Shown piece after piece: positions 31,777 to 39,902 of a stretch of DNA of 42,050 nucleotides. The notes beneath the pieces were generated by a model, which worked only from the letters and a program-made list of their open reading frames with translations, was not told the origin of the DNA and searched no databases. The translations under genes were made by a program, and so were the position numbers. The DNA comes from Paracoccaceae bacterium (lineage in GTDB: Bacteria > Pseudomonadota > Alphaproteobacteria > Rhodobacterales > Rhodobacteraceae). The number at the start of each line of letters is the position of its first letter. Within the stretch, counting starts at the first letter, position 1. The stretch covers positions 1 to 42,050 of the forward strand of contig JAQWUC010000042.1 of NCBI GenBank assembly GCA_029242355.1. The letters run 5' to 3'.

Positions 31777-32403
31777 TTAATCAATGAGCTTGGCCTCAGT
31801 GATAACTTTAACATTATCTAAAGAAACTCCAGCTGCAAGCTCTACAATCTTCAAACCGCCAGCAACAACGTCAAAAATACCCATGTTAGTGATAACTCGA
31901 TCTACAACAGATTTGCCCGTAAGCGGCAAAGTACAGTCTTTTAAAAGTTTGCTTTCACCATGTTTGTTGGAATGATCCATTATAACAACAACTCTCTTTA
32001 CTCCGGCGACTAAATCCATCGCTCCTCCCATACCCTTAACTAATTTTCCTGGAATCATCCAATTCGCCAAATCACCATTTTCTGAGACTTCCATAGCGCC
32101 CAAAATCGCCATATCAATATGACCTCCTCGGATCATTGAAAAGCTATCCGCACTATTAAAATAACTAGTCCGTGGAAGCTCCGTAACAGTTTGTTTTCCA
32201 GCATTTATTAAATCAGCGTCAACTTGGTTTTCTGTTGGGAAGGGACCCATACCAAGCATCCCATTTTCCGATTGAAGAGTTACATCTATTCCTTCGGGAA
32301 TAAAATTGGAAACGAGCGTAGGAATGCCAATACCTAAATTAACATACATTCCATCTTTAAGCTCTTTAGCAGCAACTTCAGCCATTTGATTTCGATTCCA
32401 CAT
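31777..32403 (-). CDS. scoB: 3-oxoacid CoA-transferase subunit B
   Basis: Beta subunit of the heterodimeric CoA-transferase that activates acetoacetate (or 3-oxoadipate) with succinyl-CoA. The catalytic glutamate lies in [15 protein letters not shown], and [14 protein letters not shown] is the family N-terminal block. The 208 residues fit the subunit. It starts 2 nt after the scoA stop, in the same operon. Acetoacetate versus 3-oxoadipate cannot be separated from the sequence; no protocatechuate genes are nearby, so ketone-body use is preferred. Confidence 0.93.
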
Positions 32404-32405
32404 TT

Positions 32406-33110
32406 TTAAACTTCCTTTGAACTACTTAAAGTCAAATTTTCAATCCTTTTCTCATGATCGCCTTTGATTATTCGATTTACAAATATACCAGGCGTATGAA
32501 TTTCGTCTGGATCCAAAGTCCCTATTGAAACGATTTCTTCAACCTCAGCTACACAAATCCTTCCGCAAGTGGCAGCGTTGGGGTTAAAATTACGGGCTGT
32601 TTTTCGGTAGACTAAATTCCCCTGTTCATCACCCTTCCAAGCCTTGACAATCGATAAATCCGCCATCATTCCAAGCTCTAAAATATAAGTTTGATCATTA
32701 AAAACCTTATGCTCTTTTCCCTCAGCAACTGTTGTTCCAACGCCGGTCTTAGTATAAAATCCTGGGATCCCCGCACCACCAGCCCTCATTCTTTCAGCCA
32801 ATGTTCCTTGAGGAGTAAACTCTAGCTCCAGCTCACCCGCTAAATATTGGCGCATAAATTCTGCGTTTTCTCCAACATAAGAGGAAATCATTTTCTTTAT
32901 TTGTCGTGTGGCCAAAAGTTGACCTAGACCAAAATCATCAACGCCCGCATTATTAGACGCAACAGTTAAATCTTTAATCTTTGTTTTTGAAATTTCTTCA
33001 ATTAAATTTTCAGGAATGCCGCATAATCCAAAACCTCCCGCGGCTATTAACATTCCATCAAATAATAAACCATCCAATGCTGAAGCTGCTGACTTATATA
33101 TCTTCTTCAT
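32406..33110 (-). CDS. scoA: 3-oxoacid CoA-transferase subunit A
   Basis: Alpha subunit of the same CoA-transferase. [15 protein letters not shown] near residues 23-37 is the family CoA-binding signature, and [19 protein letters not shown] is a second conserved block. The 234 residues fit. It is the first gene of the scoAB pair, preceded by 106 bp of AT-rich sequence with no clear promoter. Confidence 0.93.
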
Positions 33111-33216: not shown

Positions 33217-33849
33217 TTATTCATTTTCGTTATCATCGGCCCCTGCCCCAAGTAACCGCGACATCGGACTTTCTGGTACATAGGTTTTATGCGCCATTTT
33301 TGTTAAAAAATCCCAGCTATCAATTGAACTTCTTTCTATTGATCGCTTTAAAAAAAATGGTTCTTTTGAACTCTCAGAGATTGAAACAACTAAACTACCA
33401 ACACTTTTGGGATTAATATTTTTCCCAGAAACATTAAAACCGTCCTCATTCATAGTAATTTGACAATTATCCCATGAGACAGAAAAAGAATACTGTTCAT
33501 TTTGCAACCGCAATAATGCTCCTACAACAGAAAGTGGACCAATAACAGGGTCTTTTATCTTAATGTTACTCTCGAGTACATCTGACAAACAATCTAAAAA
33601 AAACACTCCGAGTAGAAGGCCCGTTTTAGGCTTACCTATTTCATCAAAAGATCCTTCATAAATCGAAGGATGTTCCAAACCATTGTCATCTATAAATTTC
33701 AAACTTAAATAAATTGCATCAGGGCCCGGTAACCTGAGCTCAGACAGATGTCGCGCAATCAAACCAGTTTCTTCGGCCAGACCCCAACTAAGTCCAACAC
33801 CTTTTGCAGCTTTTTTACATTGAGCTTCTATCTCACCAAGGGAATACAT
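33217..33849 (-). CDS. DUF3726-like protein of the M19 cassette
   Basis: A 210-residue protein of unknown function. The N-terminus MYSLGEIEAQCKKAAKGVGLSWGLAEETG resembles the DUF3726 family (quoted here as MYSLGEIEAQCKKAAKGVGL and SWGLAEETG), recognised by memory and not by search. No signal peptide or membrane segment is seen. ATG 33849 begins 5 nt after the stop of the upstream 565-residue gene and matches the family start; a TTG 36 nt earlier would overlap that gene. It is the last gene of a cassette with that protein and an M19-type enzyme, so a shared role is likely but unknown. Confidence 0.72.
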   Translation of the reverse strand: MYSLGEIEAQCKKAAKGVGLSWGLAEETGLIARHLSELRLPGPDAIYLSLKFIDDNGLEHPSIYEGSFDEIGKPKTGLLLGVFFLDCLSDVLESNIKIKDPVIGPLSVVGALLRLQNEQYSFSVSWDNCQITMNEDGFNVSGKNINPKSVGSLVVSISESSKEPFFLKRSIERSSIDSWDFLTKMAHKTYVPESPMSRLLGAGADDNENE

Positions 33850-33854
33850 CGCGT

Positions 33855-35552
33855 CTAAGAGACTTTCGAACCCGAATAAGGCCAAAAATCATCATATGCA
33901 CAAACTAACTCATTTGGAAACGGTGCATTTTGATACATACAAATTCTAACCCAACGGTCGGAGCGTGGATCAAACCTGTCAGCGCCAAAAAAAGAAAGCT
34001 TACATCTCAACATATCGATTGGTTTCATGTTTGAACCAATTAAATTATCTCTAATCTCACCATAAGGAACTTCCCGATGCTCCGTTACCCGTCTAACACA
34101 ATGCCGATGTTGTGGATAAAGCATTAAAAAATTAGCGATCTTATCGTTTAAAGGCCATTCTTGAAGGGCCTCATACAACTCTTTAATATCACGCCCTATG
34201 GCCAGTGGTTGTTCTAACTCTGATCCATCTTCTTCAAATCTTTGTCCTAATCTAGGCTCTAATTTATCCTCAGAGACATACCAAAATCTTGCTTGTCCAT
34301 CTTGGGTTTTATAATCATATTCAAGTGCCCAAGAAAACGAATGTTTAATTATATTTATAATTATTCCACAAGCTAATTTACCGTCTAAACGGAAATATTT
34401 GTTTTCATCAATCGCCATTTCTGACGATAACCCATCAACTAAATCCCCGTATGGCTCTAAGATTAGAGAACATAAAGCTTCTTGGCCTTCCAACGTTAAG
34501 TTTATTAATGCCCAGTCATATAATTTGTTCCATGGGAATTGGTCACCAATGCAGATTGACTTAAAAAACCCTTTAATTTCTTTCAAATCTTTCCGGAGGT
34601 TCTTCAGCTTAGAAATTTGGATTGGGTGCTGCGATGTCCAACAAATAGCATTTTGATAGCAGCTCTCTAAAAGCATCGAAAAAAGATTCGCCTCTTCACT
34701 CGTCATAATTGGTATTTCTCTAACACGTGCAATCGCTGTTTCCCTTGCTCTAATCCATCGATCGAATAAACTGGGGTGATTTACAATAAATGGTGCCATT
34801 CCAAGACCAGTTGAGTTTCCAATTCCAAAGCGCTTACGCAATTTAGGCTCTATCTTACAAGCATTCTCACCACCCTGCTCGAAGGCAACAAACTCAACTA
34901 GATCTAGTACAAAGCATCGCACAAGATAAACTGCCAACATTTCAGCTTGAAATGGCATCGCCAACTCTACCCTATCTTTTAAAAAAGTTCGGTCGCTTAA
35001 ACCAAATTTACCAGATCCATATACAGCGGTCGTTCGCATCAAGTAGCCAACATCCTCTACATCTTTAAGCTCTGGCTGCTTACCTTCGGAAAGTGCCGTA
35101 ACGACTTTGTTCCAAAGCCTTACTGATTTATTAGCTCTTCCAAGTACCAGCTCTGTCGCGTTCAAACGTCCTTCCTCTTGGAAAGGAACGTTTTTTTTCA
35201 ACCGGTCAATTTCTTGAGTATCTGGAATACCGTCAAAAAGAGTAAATGTAACATCCCAGGCTGTGGCAATTACGCGATCAGACCGTTTGTCAGCCGGTAA
35301 ATAGTTTGAGAAAGTCACTAACGAATATTCTCGCTCTGGACCCTTCACACTATAAACTGCGGTTCCGTATCCGTCAGCAGATATGTCCCAAACTGGAATT
35401 GAGAATTTCCACTTTTCCACTGCCAGCCGTCGCAGTAATTGCCTCATAAAACTTAAACGCGTCTGATGGAAGCTACCTAATCTTGGAAGATGCATAACCT
35501 CACTTGGAGTTCTTAAAGAAATTTTTATTTTTTTACTCTTTAAACTTTTCAT
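33855..35552 (-). CDS. Conserved-looking protein of unknown function, 565 residues
   Basis: I do not recognise this family. The protein appears soluble, without signal peptide or clear membrane segments, and is rich in charged and aromatic residues. Potential landmarks are LPRLGSFHQTRLSFMRQLLR near the N-terminus, ELVLGRANKSVRLWNKVV, FGIGNSTGLGMAPFIVNHPS in the middle, and a tryptophan-rich C-terminus ending FWPYSG. Codon use looks like its neighbours, so this is a real gene. It lies 27 nt after the M19-type gene and 5 nt before the DUF3726-like gene. The start ATG has a weak ribosome binding site; MHLPRLGSF further in is a possible alternative. Confidence 0.7.
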   Translation of the reverse strand: MKSLKSKKIKISLRTPSEVMHLPRLGSFHQTRLSFMRQLLRRLAVEKWKFSIPVWDISADGYGTAVYSVKGPEREYSLVTFSNYLPADKRSDRVIATAWDVTFTLFDGIPDTQEIDRLKKNVPFQEEGRLNATELVLGRANKSVRLWNKVVTALSEGKQPELKDVEDVGYLMRTTAVYGSGKFGLSDRTFLKDRVELAMPFQAEMLAVYLVRCFVLDLVEFVAFEQGGENACKIEPKLRKRFGIGNSTGLGMAPFIVNHPSLFDRWIRARETAIARVREIPIMTSEEANLFSMLLESCYQNAICWTSQHPIQISKLKNLRKDLKEIKGFFKSICIGDQFPWNKLYDWALINLTLEGQEALCSLILEPYGDLVDGLSSEMAIDENKYFRLDGKLACGIIINIIKHSFSWALEYDYKTQDGQARFWYVSEDKLEPRLGQRFEEDGSELEQPLAIGRDIKELYEALQEWPLNDKIANFLMLYPQHRHCVRRVTEHREVPYGEIRDNLIGSNMKPIDMLRCKLSFFGADRFDPRSDRWVRICMYQNAPFPNELVCAYDDFWPYSGSKVS

Positions 35553-35579
35553 TTTTCACACAAAATGTCCTATTAAGCA

Positions 35580-36566
35580 TTATTTACTTTTTAGCGTAAA
35601 ACTATTCTCAAAAAATCGTAACCAGTTTCCACCCATGACTTTGGAAATATCGTCATTGTTCATTCCTAATTTCTTTAAGCCAACCTGTAAATTGGGAAAA
35701 TCGGTATTGTCTTTATAAAAATCTGGCATAACCGGAAAGCCCGCATTTGATGCCGAACCTTCGCCATAATCAATTTTTTTTGTCCAACGCCCGGCACGCA
35801 TCCATTCTACAATAGAATTAGGTTGATCCTGGCACAAATCAGAACCGATTCCAATATTCTCTACTCCAATCATATCTGCTGTTTTGCAAATCATACCACA
35901 AAAATCCTCTAAAGAACAGAGTGACCCATTTTTTAAATGGTGCGGGTAAAGTGAAAATCCAATCATACCACCCGTTTGTGATAACGCCTTTAAGACCTTA
36001 TCTGACTTATTTCTAAGAGCAGAATGCCACCAAGAAGGGTTGGCATGTGTAATGGCTACAGGACGATTGGAAGTTTCAATAACTTGCAAAGTGGATTTCT
36101 CACCAGAATGGCTCATGTCAATCACCATACCCAAGCGGTTCATTTCTTCAACGACTTCCAAACCCATCCGAGTCAATCCAGTATCTTGCTTTTCATAGCA
36201 ACCTGAAGCAAGAAGAGATTGGTTATTGTAGGTGAGTTGCATAAATCTTATCCCCAGCTTTTGCCATACTTCTAATAATCTAATATCATCCTCGATGGGG
36301 GAAGGGTTTTGAAAGCCTAAAAAAATTGATGTGCGGCCTGTTTCCTTTGCTAGCCGAACATCCTCAGCATAAAATCCTTGAAAAATATGATCCGAATAAT
36401 CTTGAAAATACTGATGCCACTTTTCAAGATTTAGAACGGTATCTCGAAACCCCTCATGGTAGGCAATTGTAACGTGAACCGCATCAATATGCGCATCTCT
36501 CATCTCTTCAAAAACCTTGCCTGACCAATTGGCGTACTGTAAGCAGTCGATTAAAACGTCATCCAT
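35580..36566 (-). CDS. Peptidase M19 (membrane dipeptidase)-like protein with degenerate metal site
   Basis: TIM-barrel protein of the M19 renal-dipeptidase superfamily, 328 residues, without a signal peptide. IDMSHSG (His153), ITHANPSWW (His174) and GIGSDLCQ (Asp243) match metal ligands and the catalytic aspartate of M19. The N-terminal HxD metal pair is replaced by L9 and Y11 in IDCLQYANW, and the bridging glutamate by Q86 in FLGFQNPSP, so a binuclear zinc site of the normal kind is unlikely. A similar M19 subtype (IDGL...W start) is linked to dimethylglycine/betaine catabolism genes in Pseudomonas, as I recall. Function here is unknown; calling it a dipeptidase would be unsafe. Confidence 0.82.
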   Translation of the reverse strand: MDDVLIDCLQYANWSGKVFEEMRDAHIDAVHVTIAYHEGFRDTVLNLEKWHQYFQDYSDHIFQGFYAEDVRLAKETGRTSIFLGFQNPSPIEDDIRLLEVWQKLGIRFMQLTYNNQSLLASGCYEKQDTGLTRMGLEVVEEMNRLGMVIDMSHSGEKSTLQVIETSNRPVAITHANPSWWHSALRNKSDKVLKALSQTGGMIGFSLYPHHLKNGSLCSLEDFCGMICKTADMIGVENIGIGSDLCQDQPNSIVEWMRAGRWTKKIDYGEGSASNAGFPVMPDFYKDNTDFPNLQVGLKKLGMNNDDISKVMGGNWLRFFENSFTLKSK

Positions 36567-36724: not shown

Positions 36725-37957
36725 TCAATAATAATTTTCAAACCACTCCACAATAAGATTTCGTTCACTTGGCTCCATATAAGATATATTATTTGGTGGC
36801 ATGTAATTGCTTATCCCTGCATTAACATAAATCTGCTTTGCGTTTCTCGCAATATCATACTTAGTTTCCAAAAAAAGGCCCCCAGGCGCTTCAGCAAGAC
36901 CATCCCATAATGGTTCACGGGCATGGCACATGGCACATCGACTTATTATTGTGTCAGCCAGCTCCTCATATTTTGCTAGTTCTAGGGCAGAACCATGATT
37001 ATTATTTAACGACAACTCATCATCAATATTAGCTGGAGGTGGCCGTAAAACTGACAATAATATTACCGAAACAAACAAAAATGCAGTTACAAGCCAAGCC
37101 CAAATTGGTTTCAAATTGAACGCGTGTTTTTGATTAAAGTAATGGCGTATCGATACTCCCATTAAGAACACTAAACCAGCAATCACCCAATTATACTGTG
37201 CACCAAACGCTAGTGGGTAATGATTCGATATCATCATAAAAATAACAGGTAGTGTTAAATAATTATTATGAGTAGACCTCTGTTTGGCAATAACACCATA
37301 CTTTGGATCAGGGGAGCGACCAGCCATCAAATCAGCCACAACAATCTTCTGATTAGGAATAATTATAAAGAAAACATTAGCAGACATTATAGTTGCCGTT
37401 AGTGCACCCAAATGTAAGAATGCAGCTCGTCCACTAAACATATGACAGTACGCCCAAGAAAATCCAACTAACATGAGAAATAACATAAGCATTAAACGCG
37501 TATCATTCTTTCCAATGTTTATCTTGCATATGATGTTATAGAGAAACCACCCAAGTGCTAAAGAGAAAATAGACAACAGTATTGCCGATGTAACTGAAAT
37601 ATCTAAAACAGAAGCATCGATTAAAAGTAACTCTGCACCTCCATAATAAACAATTGCAAGAAGTGCGAACCCCGAGATCCAAGTGGCATAACTCTCCCAT
37701 TTAAACCAAACAAGTTTTTTCGGAAGATCTGGTGGTGCTATTGTGAATTTACGAATATTATAAAAACCACCCCCATGCACTTGCCACTCCTCCCCTTTAA
37801 CTCCTTCAGGTAAAGTCGGAGAATGTCTCAAGCCTAAATCTAATGCTATGAAGTAAAAAGATGAACCGATCCATGCGATGGCAGTGATGACATGAATCCA
37901 TCGAACAGCAAACTCTATCCAATCCCAAAAAATGATTTGAACCATTAAAATATCCAC
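36725..37957 (-). CDS. puuD: Urate hydroxylase/oxidase PuuD with C-terminal cytochrome c
   Basis: Membrane urate oxidase of the PuuD type, oxidising urate to 5-hydroxyisourate and passing electrons to the respiratory chain. About eight or nine hydrophobic helices begin with WIHVITAIAWIGSSFYFIALD, and GGFYNIRKFTIAPPDLPKKL is a family loop. A C-terminal cytochrome c domain has the haem motif CAMCH at residues 341-345 and a likely axial Met386 in NYMPPNN. The 410 residues fit. The GTG start at 37957 is supported by GGGAG 6 nt upstream; ATG 37945 is an alternative. It lies 2 nt after uraH. Confidence 0.93.
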   Translation of the reverse strand: MDILMVQIIFWDWIEFAVRWIHVITAIAWIGSSFYFIALDLGLRHSPTLPEGVKGEEWQVHGGGFYNIRKFTIAPPDLPKKLVWFKWESYATWISGFALLAIVYYGGAELLLIDASVLDISVTSAILLSIFSLALGWFLYNIICKINIGKNDTRLMLMLFLMLVGFSWAYCHMFSGRAAFLHLGALTATIMSANVFFIIIPNQKIVVADLMAGRSPDPKYGVIAKQRSTHNNYLTLPVIFMMISNHYPLAFGAQYNWVIAGLVFLMGVSIRHYFNQKHAFNLKPIWAWLVTAFLFVSVILLSVLRPPPANIDDELSLNNNHGSALELAKYEELADTIISRCAMCHAREPLWDGLAEAPGGLFLETKYDIARNAKQIYVNAGISNYMPPNNISYMEPSERNLIVEWFENYY

Positions 37958-38486: not shown

Positions 38487-39902
38487 ATGCGCTATCCTAG
38501 AAACATGATTGGATACGGACAACAAACACCAAATCCAAAATGGCCTCAAAATGCGAATATTGCCGTGCAATTTGTTATCAATTACGAAGAAGGTGGCGAA
38601 AACTGTCTGTTGCATGGTGACAAATCGTCCGAAGCATTTCTTTCGGAGATTGTTGGGGCATCTCCTTGGCCAAACCAACGCCACTGGAATATGGAGAGTA
38701 TTTATGAATATGGAGCTAGATCTGGGTTTTGGAGATTGTATCGCTTATTCACCGAAGCCGGAATTCCTATTACCGTATTTGGAGTAGCTAATGCTCTTGA
38801 GCGGGCACCAGAGCAAGTGCTCGCAATGAAAACTGCTGAATGGGAAATAGCATCTCATGGATTAAAATGGATAGATTATAAAGATGTAACACCCTCTCAG
38901 GAGAAAGGTGACCTAACCAAGGCAATACAAATTCATACAGCAGTGACAGGATCGGCGCCATCTGGATATTATTTAGGCAGGTGTTCTGAGCACACTGTTG
39001 AAATTGCAACTAACCATGGAAATTTTGAATACATATCCGATGCCTACGATGACGATCTTCCCTATTGGAAGTCACATGGAAATAAAAATCAATTAATTAT
39101 TCCTTATACACTCGATGCAAATGATATGCGTTTTGCCACACCACAGGGTTTTAATTCAGGAACGCAATTTTACGATTATCTCAAAGACTCATTTGATATG
39201 TTACTTCTTGAGGGTCGCCAGGGATCGCCAAAAATGATGAGTATTGGGTTACATTGTAGGCTTGCAGGACGCCCCGGAAGGGCAATCGCTGTGAAACGTT
39301 TCCTAGACTATATAAATAATTTTCCAGATATTTGGATAGCCAGGAGAATAGACATCGCGAACCATTGGAAAAAATACCACCCCCCTATAATATCAAAAGT
39401 GGCTCCCTTTAACTTGAAAAAAAGTGACTTTTTATCAACATTTGGCAATGTTTTTGAGAATAGTTCCTGGATAGCGGAACGAGCCTTCAAAAAAGAATTA
39501 AGCCCATCAATGAATACAATTATCGGAATACACAGCGCGCTTTGTTTCCAATTCCGAACTGCATCACAAGAAGAAAGAGTTGGTGTTCTTAACGAGCATC
39601 CGGACTTAGCTGGAAAACTCGCTAGCGAAAATCAATTAACGGAAGAAAGTACAAATGAACAAAAATCTGCTGGTTTAGACCAACTCACCTTAGCCGAACT
39701 TACAGAGTTTACTACCCTAAACGATAAATATATCAAAAAATTTAAACACCCATTCATTATGGCCGTAAGCAACAAAACTAAGGAAGAAATACTTCAAACA
39801 TTTTACGTAAGAATTGAAAATAACGCTAATCAAGAACTAGCGACAGCATGCGCAGAGGTTGAAAAAATAGCCCTAATTAGAATACAGCAAATCTTTAAAT
39901 AG
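38487..39902 (+). CDS. Bifunctional allantoinase PuuE / OHCU decarboxylase fusion
   Basis: A 471-residue fusion. Residues 1-305 are a cofactor-independent allantoinase of the polysaccharide-deacetylase fold (MRYPRNMIGYGQQTPNPKWP, WEIASHGLKWIDY, PSGYYLGRCSEHTVEIA and MMSIGLHCRLAGRPGR). Residues 310-471 are OHCU decarboxylase (UraD), with HPDLAGKL at residues 371-378 and LTEFTTLNDKYIKKFKHPFI. It would convert OHCU to S-allantoin and then to allantoate. GGAG lies 6 nt before the ATG. Fusions of this kind are known in alphaproteobacteria. It starts a unit with allA. Confidence 0.92.
   Translation: MRYPRNMIGYGQQTPNPKWPQNANIAVQFVINYEEGGENCLLHGDKSSEAFLSEIVGASPWPNQRHWNMESIYEYGARSGFWRLYRLFTEAGIPITVFGVANALERAPEQVLAMKTAEWEIASHGLKWIDYKDVTPSQEKGDLTKAIQIHTAVTGSAPSGYYLGRCSEHTVEIATNHGNFEYISDAYDDDLPYWKSHGNKNQLIIPYTLDANDMRFATPQGFNSGTQFYDYLKDSFDMLLLEGRQGSPKMMSIGLHCRLAGRPGRAIAVKRFLDYINNFPDIWIARRIDIANHWKKYHPPIISKVAPFNLKKSDFLSTFGNVFENSSWIAERAFKKELSPSMNTIIGIHSALCFQFRTASQEERVGVLNEHPDLAGKLASENQLTEESTNEQKSAGLDQLTLAELTEFTTLNDKYIKKFKHPFIMAVSNKTKEEILQTFYVRIENNANQELATACAEVEKIALIRIQQIFK

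Follow-up and report, generated by a model that had tools for sequence, protein, structure and literature searches.

What do three tightly packed genes without an assigned function do together beside a set of urate degradation genes? The question is raised by a 42,050-nucleotide (nt) stretch of a Paracoccaceae bacterium (assembly GCA_029242355.1, contig JAQWUC010000042.1, positions 1 to 42,050), the whole of which is called the window here. The trio encodes an M19-like hydrolase, a protein of 565 amino acids (aa) named P565, and a DUF3726 protein. It is fairly probable that these genes form the core of an operon that degrades a small N-methylated betaine to N-methylglutamate, and homarine (N-methylpicolinate) is the likeliest substrate. 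Homarine is an abundant nitrogen compound of marine plankton. If this is true, P565 and DUF3726 stand at the entry of homarine breakdown and represent a new way of opening an aromatic N-methyl ring. The three genes are as follows.

35580..36566, minus strand: M19-like hydrolase of 328 aa, ATG start; Pfam PF01244; closest PDB chain 2i5g
33855..35552, minus strand: P565, 565 aa, an undescribed family, ATG start; no Pfam or NCBIfam match
33217..33849, minus strand: DUF3726 protein, ATG start; Pfam PF12525; comes after P565

The M19 and P565 genes are separated by 27 nt, and P565 and DUF3726 by 5 nt if the latter starts from the ATG at 33849. The longest open reading frame of DUF3726 starts from an alternative TTG at 33885 and overlaps P565, but the ATG is favoured because of the conserved (M)YSLxEIE beginning. 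In Pfam, the first protein matched Peptidase_M19 with an E value of 6e-72 (242.9 bits against a cut-off of 26) and the third matched DUF3726 with an E value of 2e-10 (40.8 bits against a gathering score of 22.1). No Pfam family was matched by P565, and no NCBIfam model by any of the three. The ratios of non-synonymous to synonymous polymorphism (pN/pS) against the congener locus L026 were 0.15 for M19, 0.17 for P565 and 0.36 for DUF3726. Therefore, all three genes are under purifying selection.

To see the trio in other genomes, 53 P565 loci were compared with 18 control regions; besides the window, these loci comprise 43 found in genomes and 9 found on plasmids. The next gene after P565 on the same strand is DUF3726 in 47 of the 53 loci and a DUF3726-like partner in another five, although the partner profiles were built partly from the counted loci (18 of the 47 DUF3726 and three of the five DUF3726-like, profile A6). 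The sole locus with neither partner is the diverged L071. M19 is found near P565 in 47/53 loci against 0/18 controls. The grouping is therefore not a matter of chance. The pairing of P565 with its partner persists in relatives as distant as about 27% identity. The strand and the two gap lengths given in the original prediction are exact with the ATG at 33849, and its view of the trio as a conserved unit was borne out, since the homologues share a neighbourhood and are not scattered.

P565 relatives were detected in 17 of the 61 near genomes and in 47 of the 337 class-wide genomes, some of which are only 1.2–1.4 Mb in size. On plasmids, 168 of 72,556 records contained a match, including 64 from Sinorhizobium and 58 from Phaeobacter; Caballeronia and the archaeon Natrinema were represented too, with identities of about 40% and 29%, respectively. 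No P565 relative was found in IMG/VR.

P565 and DUF3726 are read as one enzyme mainly because their pairing is constant in 52 of the 53 loci. They probably form a single two-subunit enzyme, in which P565 is proposed as the large, catalytic subunit of a putative ring-opening enzyme and DUF3726 as its obligate partner subunit. When 23 P565 relatives were compared with Pfam, just weak matches of single members appeared (best E value 0.0045). The P565 profile found no sequence relative in the PDB; coiled-coil proteins and V-ATPase subunit C were matched with a best E value of 0.0094 and were taken as chance. The AlphaFold2 model, built from 8 sequences, has a predicted local distance difference test score (pLDDT) of 61. 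Foldseek gave no match to it under an E value of 0.001, and VIA-align gave no Z score of 8 or more, so no fold is claimed for P565. The family and structure searches that had been suggested for the trio thus recognised M19 and DUF3726 by Pfam and left P565 outside any described family, as had been expected of it. Among 17 diverse P565 sequences, the invariant residues are seven Arg, one Asp, one Tyr and one Asn, with no invariant His or Cys, which would argue against a metal or haem bound by His or Cys. A closer set of 23 sequences has one invariant His, H259.

For DUF3726, a term absent from the literature searched, profile and fold comparison agree. The AlphaFold2 model from 8 sequences is of low confidence (pLDDT 58, predicted template modelling score 0.60). 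Foldseek alone gave no match to it under an E value of 0.001, and the DUF3726 profile gave nothing under 0.6 against the PDB. In VIA-align, the ten best entries for the model all belong to the Ldh (type-2 malate/lactate dehydrogenase) family, to which the YiaK structure entries presumably belong, and the first unrelated entry has a Z score of 3.7. The scores were 9.5 for 1s20 (root-mean-square deviation 2.2, 74 aligned residues), 8.6 for 1nxu (2.1, 73 aligned) and 7.0 for 1wtj, a delta1-piperideine-2-carboxylate reductase (12.3 over 128), where models without clear matches typically reach 7 to 8. Independently of the model, hhalign matched about 50 N-terminal residues of DUF3726 with Ldh proteins, mostly from the same operons, at a probability of 68–85% in six profile pairings with three Ldh profiles. 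The controls gave 0.1–0.3% against eight unrelated partner profiles and 0.8–1.3% against reversed Ldh. The Ldh partner in the operons is a family member by sequence; for DUF3726, the profile likeness to the family extends over about 50 N-terminal residues. DUF3726 proteins are mostly 150–250 aa long (152–248 aa counted) compared with about 335 for Ldh, and their alignment (A3) has no conserved His, whereas His48 of the SHG motif is invariant in the Ldh alignment (A9). Therefore, DUF3726 is at most a shrunken relative, and the comparisons suggest a shrunken Ldh fold. It is probably not a dehydrogenase. The partner of the S. meliloti type (A6) resembles DUF3726 only weakly (hhalign probability 18%, E value 0.0013) and does not resemble Ldh (0.4%).

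The M19-like protein appears to be altered as well. Its closest PDB match is 2i5g, an amidohydrolase of Pseudomonas aeruginosa (E value 1.7e-61), which is presumably PA5396 of the dimethylglycine region. No paper joining any two of the terms PA5396, PA5397, PA5398, dgcA and dimethylglycine catabolism was found in the literature searched. In 25 homologues, H153, H174 and D243 are invariant and no other His is; therefore, the family has no conserved HxD motif. The region near the N-terminus reads D7-[GNCA]-[LC]. Gln86 is present in 25/25 and aligns to the Glu of GliJ. The HxD and bridging Glu positions are presumably the binuclear metal ligands of renal dipeptidase. The M19 protein thus matches the family profile and departs from the renal-dipeptidase metal site; judged by its residues, it is not a normal dipeptidase, having an altered metal site that lacks the dipeptidase ligands. 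The same Gln for Glu is seen in 2i5g, and its aligned N-terminus has no HxD either.

The fuller operons in other genomes point to a substrate. They are arranged as below.

Phaeobacter (PGA1_RS18995-RS19015): LysR, aldehyde dehydrogenase (ALDH), M19, P565 and DUF3726, in this order
Ruegeria sp. TM1040 (TM1040_RS02315-RS02345): LysR, ALDH, M19, P565, DUF3726 and Ldh, with a BCCT transporter
Aminobacter and Pararhizobium: LysR, ALDH, M19, P565, DUF3726, Ldh and ProX-ProW-ProV

An ALDH is near P565 in 27/53 loci against 0/18 controls, 20 of the 27 scoring over 600 bits, while the others may be other ALDHs. Ldh is found in 17/53 against 0/18. For the transporters, the values are 9/53 against 0/18 for BCCT (p 0.06) and 7/53 against 0/18 for ProX (p 0.12), and one or the other is present in 16 loci. 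Among PDB entries, the TM1040 Ldh best matches delta1-piperideine-2-carboxylate reductase (E value 4.8e-53). The best NCBIfam models for the ALDH of L034 are 2,5-dioxovalerate and alpha-ketoglutaric semialdehyde (KGSA) dehydrogenase, both below their cut-offs.

The route that we infer, from the substrate and the ring-opening role to each reaction step and the formation of the complex, would run in five steps. At first, P565 and DUF3726 would open the pyridinium ring at the C5-C6 bond using O2 and reducing equivalents. The product would be 2-(N-methylformamido)-5-oxopent-2-enoate (C7H7NO2 + O2 + 2H -> C7H9NO4, a balance worked by hand on the model of the trigonelline route). Second, the KGSA-type ALDH would oxidise the C5 aldehyde. 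Third, the M19-like enzyme would take off the N-formyl group to leave the enamine or imine of 2-oxoglutarate and methylamine. Fourth, the reductase of the Ldh family, which resembles delta1-piperideine-2-carboxylate reductase, may reduce the imine to N-methylglutamate. Finally, the tetrameric N-methylglutamate dehydrogenase (Mgd) would demethylate N-methylglutamate to glutamate. The trigonelline (tgn) pathway follows the same proposed logic, namely a two-protein ring opening, an aldehyde dehydrogenase and a hydrolase; it differs in its product, the comparison is at the level of the pathway, and P565 has no Pfam family.

A paper of 2026 reportedly describes homABCDER, a homarine operon of Rhodobacterales, SAR11 and SAR116 that yields N-methylglutamate and glutamate; the cassette genes may be the same ones. 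Its reported five catabolic genes and one regulator equal the fuller loci in number. Just three genes are kept together in the window's lineage, beside urate genes, unlike that operon. One source gives Mgd a part in homarine catabolism, citing Ferrer-Gonzalez et al. 2026, Nat Microbiol 11:1531 (PMC13390433), a use of Mgd shared with the proposed route. Rapid drawdown of homarine by R. pomeroyi is described in two others, with no confirmed transporter there as of 2022 (PMC12817926, PMC9723723). The cassette is probably part of this recently published pathway. The statement that the three genes have no assigned function is thus probably out of date. Reading P565 and DUF3726 as an enzyme pair would give a probable identity to DUF3726 and a role to P565, now annotated as hypothetical.

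The link with Mgd was followed through the sarcosine-oxidase-type genes. The TM1040 operon is adjoined by a complete tetramer of this type and by a GbdR-like regulator that scored below the model cut-off. The B, D and A genes lie near P565 in five loci (TM1040, L021, G243, G333 and G197), with gamma in TM1040 and L021 only; a weak SoxA match in L069 (93 bits) was left out of the count. In a tree of 26 SoxA sequences, all five linked copies fall in a supported clade of 14 rows, and the other clade, of 12, contains no linked copy. The former also holds three copies near mgsABC-like genes. G243, G333 and G197 own one copy in each clade. The window's own genome has a SoxA (L150) that belongs to the mgs-associated clade and is encoded close to mgs-like genes. 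In G016, G028 and G333, the only GXGXG match is of glutamate-synthase size; therefore, genomes with P565 do not always carry mgs-type genes. A soxA over the cut-off was detected in 49/56 genomes with P565 and in 22/44 without it. Outside the window's family, the values are 29/35 and 4/24, confounded by ancestry and genome size, and within the family there is no difference (20/21 and 18/20).

Several results weigh against homarine as the substrate. The ring opening is chemistry by elimination because P565 has no confident fold, the identity of the cassette with the published genes is tentative, and the name homABCDER was absent from the literature matches listed. Among the partners, LysR (21/53 against 5/18) and ProV (20/53 against 4/18) are not significantly above controls. 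The second PDB match of the TM1040 Ldh is 2x06, an L-sulfolactate dehydrogenase, and the best NCBIfam model for the Ldh of L032 is also L-sulfolactate dehydrogenase, scoring 175 bits where the cut-off is 500. The sarcosine-oxidase-type linkage (5/53 loci against 1/18 controls) is not significant by itself. In the SoxA tree, the G197 copy (L141) is a long branch of unsure placement, G243 and G333 are one genus, and the three mgs-linked copies represent just two lineages. Of the partners tested, M19 alone is near P565 in the window, and neither the window's genus nor G034 has an orthologous ALDH (matches of about 27–35% identity). Finally, diverged relatives in S. meliloti, Alloyangia, Mesorhizobium and Natrinema stand in other gene contexts and probably have other substrates.

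These contexts bear on the first alternative, in which the substrate is a different N-methylated or quaternary betaine (trigonelline, a betaine of proline or hydroxyproline, or the like) and the logic of transporter and imine reductase is unchanged. Many betaines are carried by BCCT and ProXWV transporters, and the single PDB match of the L058 ProX protein is the glycine betaine/proline-type binding protein 7yle, presumably a dimethylsulfoniopropionate (DMSP)-binding protein. The diverged P565 relatives clustered with aminotransferase, succinate semialdehyde dehydrogenase (SSADH) and RidA genes indicate that the family probably serves several substrates. However, the linked SoxA copies in the mgs-associated clade, from five genomes, point to N-methylglutamate, and for trigonelline a release of methylamine would be expected. 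This alternative is therefore rather unlikely.

In Sinorhizobium meliloti (L078) and Alloyangia (L083), a diverged P565, a DUF3726-like protein and M19 occur with IclR, an ABC transporter and RidA, with aminotransferase and SSADH nearby; these clusters probably serve a different N-heterocycle or amine. On a Natrinema versiforme plasmid (L079), the haloarchaeal relative has genes for a BCCT transporter and an aldehyde dehydrogenase close by. The rhizobial and haloarchaeal relatives would point to further substrates. We propose, tentatively and with some doubt, that P565-DUF3726 may be a new two-subunit superfamily opening N-methylpyridinium or related N-heterocycles, without a family-invariant His or Cys and so probably flavin-dependent or cofactor-free. 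Its small subunit would be a shrunken, repurposed relative of the often adjacent Ldh/piperideine-carboxylate reductase, and the Sinorhizobium, Mesorhizobium and haloarchaeal relatives would act on other N-heterocycles.

Catabolism of glycine betaine, dimethylglycine and sarcosine is an improbable alternative. The likeness of M19 to 2i5g, together with the GbdR-like regulator and the tetramer adjoining the TM1040 operon, which NCBIfam names as sarcosine oxidase family and nothing narrower, would fit such a route. However, the linked SoxA copies are in the mgs-associated clade and not in the other one, and the route is not known to have a place for an ALDH and a piperideine-carboxylate-type reductase. 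The original prediction of small amine or N-methyl compound metabolism, drawn from M19 proteins in betaine/dimethylglycine operons, thus holds in outline, given the betaine transporters, the Mgd-type genes and the piperideine-carboxylate-reductase-like Ldh.

It is very improbable that the trio takes part in urate or ureide breakdown by acting on an allantoin-type intermediate. In the window, the uricase gene shares the strand of the trio and lies 158 nt from it; the two are adjacent in L026 and L029 too, so that the adjacency noted earlier is real. A functional tie did not hold, however: uricase is clustered with the trio in 3/44 loci, which are these same near relatives, and the window already has uricase, hydroxyisourate (HIU) hydrolase, 2-oxo-4-hydroxy-4-carboxy-5-ureidoimidazoline (OHCU) decarboxylase, allantoinase and ureidoglycolate lyase, all confirmed beside the trio by Pfam and NCBIfam. 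The urate neighbourhood is peculiar to the window's clade. In the window, G001 and G034, the trio stands beside urate genes, and none of the partners ALDH, Ldh and betaine transporter is linked to it, which suggests that a homarine pathway would be run there with unlinked partners. G034 has an Ldh relative of 44% identity elsewhere in its genome, and the aldehyde step in this clade would need another of its aldehyde dehydrogenases. Completeness is 61% for G000 and 96% for G001, and absences in G000 are soft because of the former value.

Finally, it is hardly credible that M19 is a genuine dipeptidase in a cassette handling small peptides, since its strong Peptidase_M19 match is set against the missing HxD, the Gln at the GliJ Glu position and the lack of a peptide transporter among the recurrent partners identified.

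Some minor observations concern the surroundings of the cassette. In G294 (L060), a TauD-family dioxygenase gene and a ProXWV transporter lie beside M19-P565-DUF3726. On plasmid pPGA1_262 of Phaeobacter inhibens (L076), genes annotated as DMSP demethylase, dmdD and acyl-CoA lie downstream of the cassette on the opposite strand; they were not seen in the other annotated regions. In the window, no promoter or terminator consensus was found between uricase and M19. A gene pair 106 nt from the trio (31777-33110, minus strand) was read by eye as an atoDA-type 3-oxoacid CoA-transferase, and an atoDA-like pair after the trio is common to the window, L026 and L029. The uricase gene (36725-37957, minus strand) encodes a membrane urate oxidase (Urate_ox_N); in its C-terminal tail, a CxxCH motif as in c-type cytochromes was read by eye. 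At 38487-39902 on the plus strand, the allantoinase PuuE and the OHCU decarboxylase (UraD) are fused in one protein of 471 aa.

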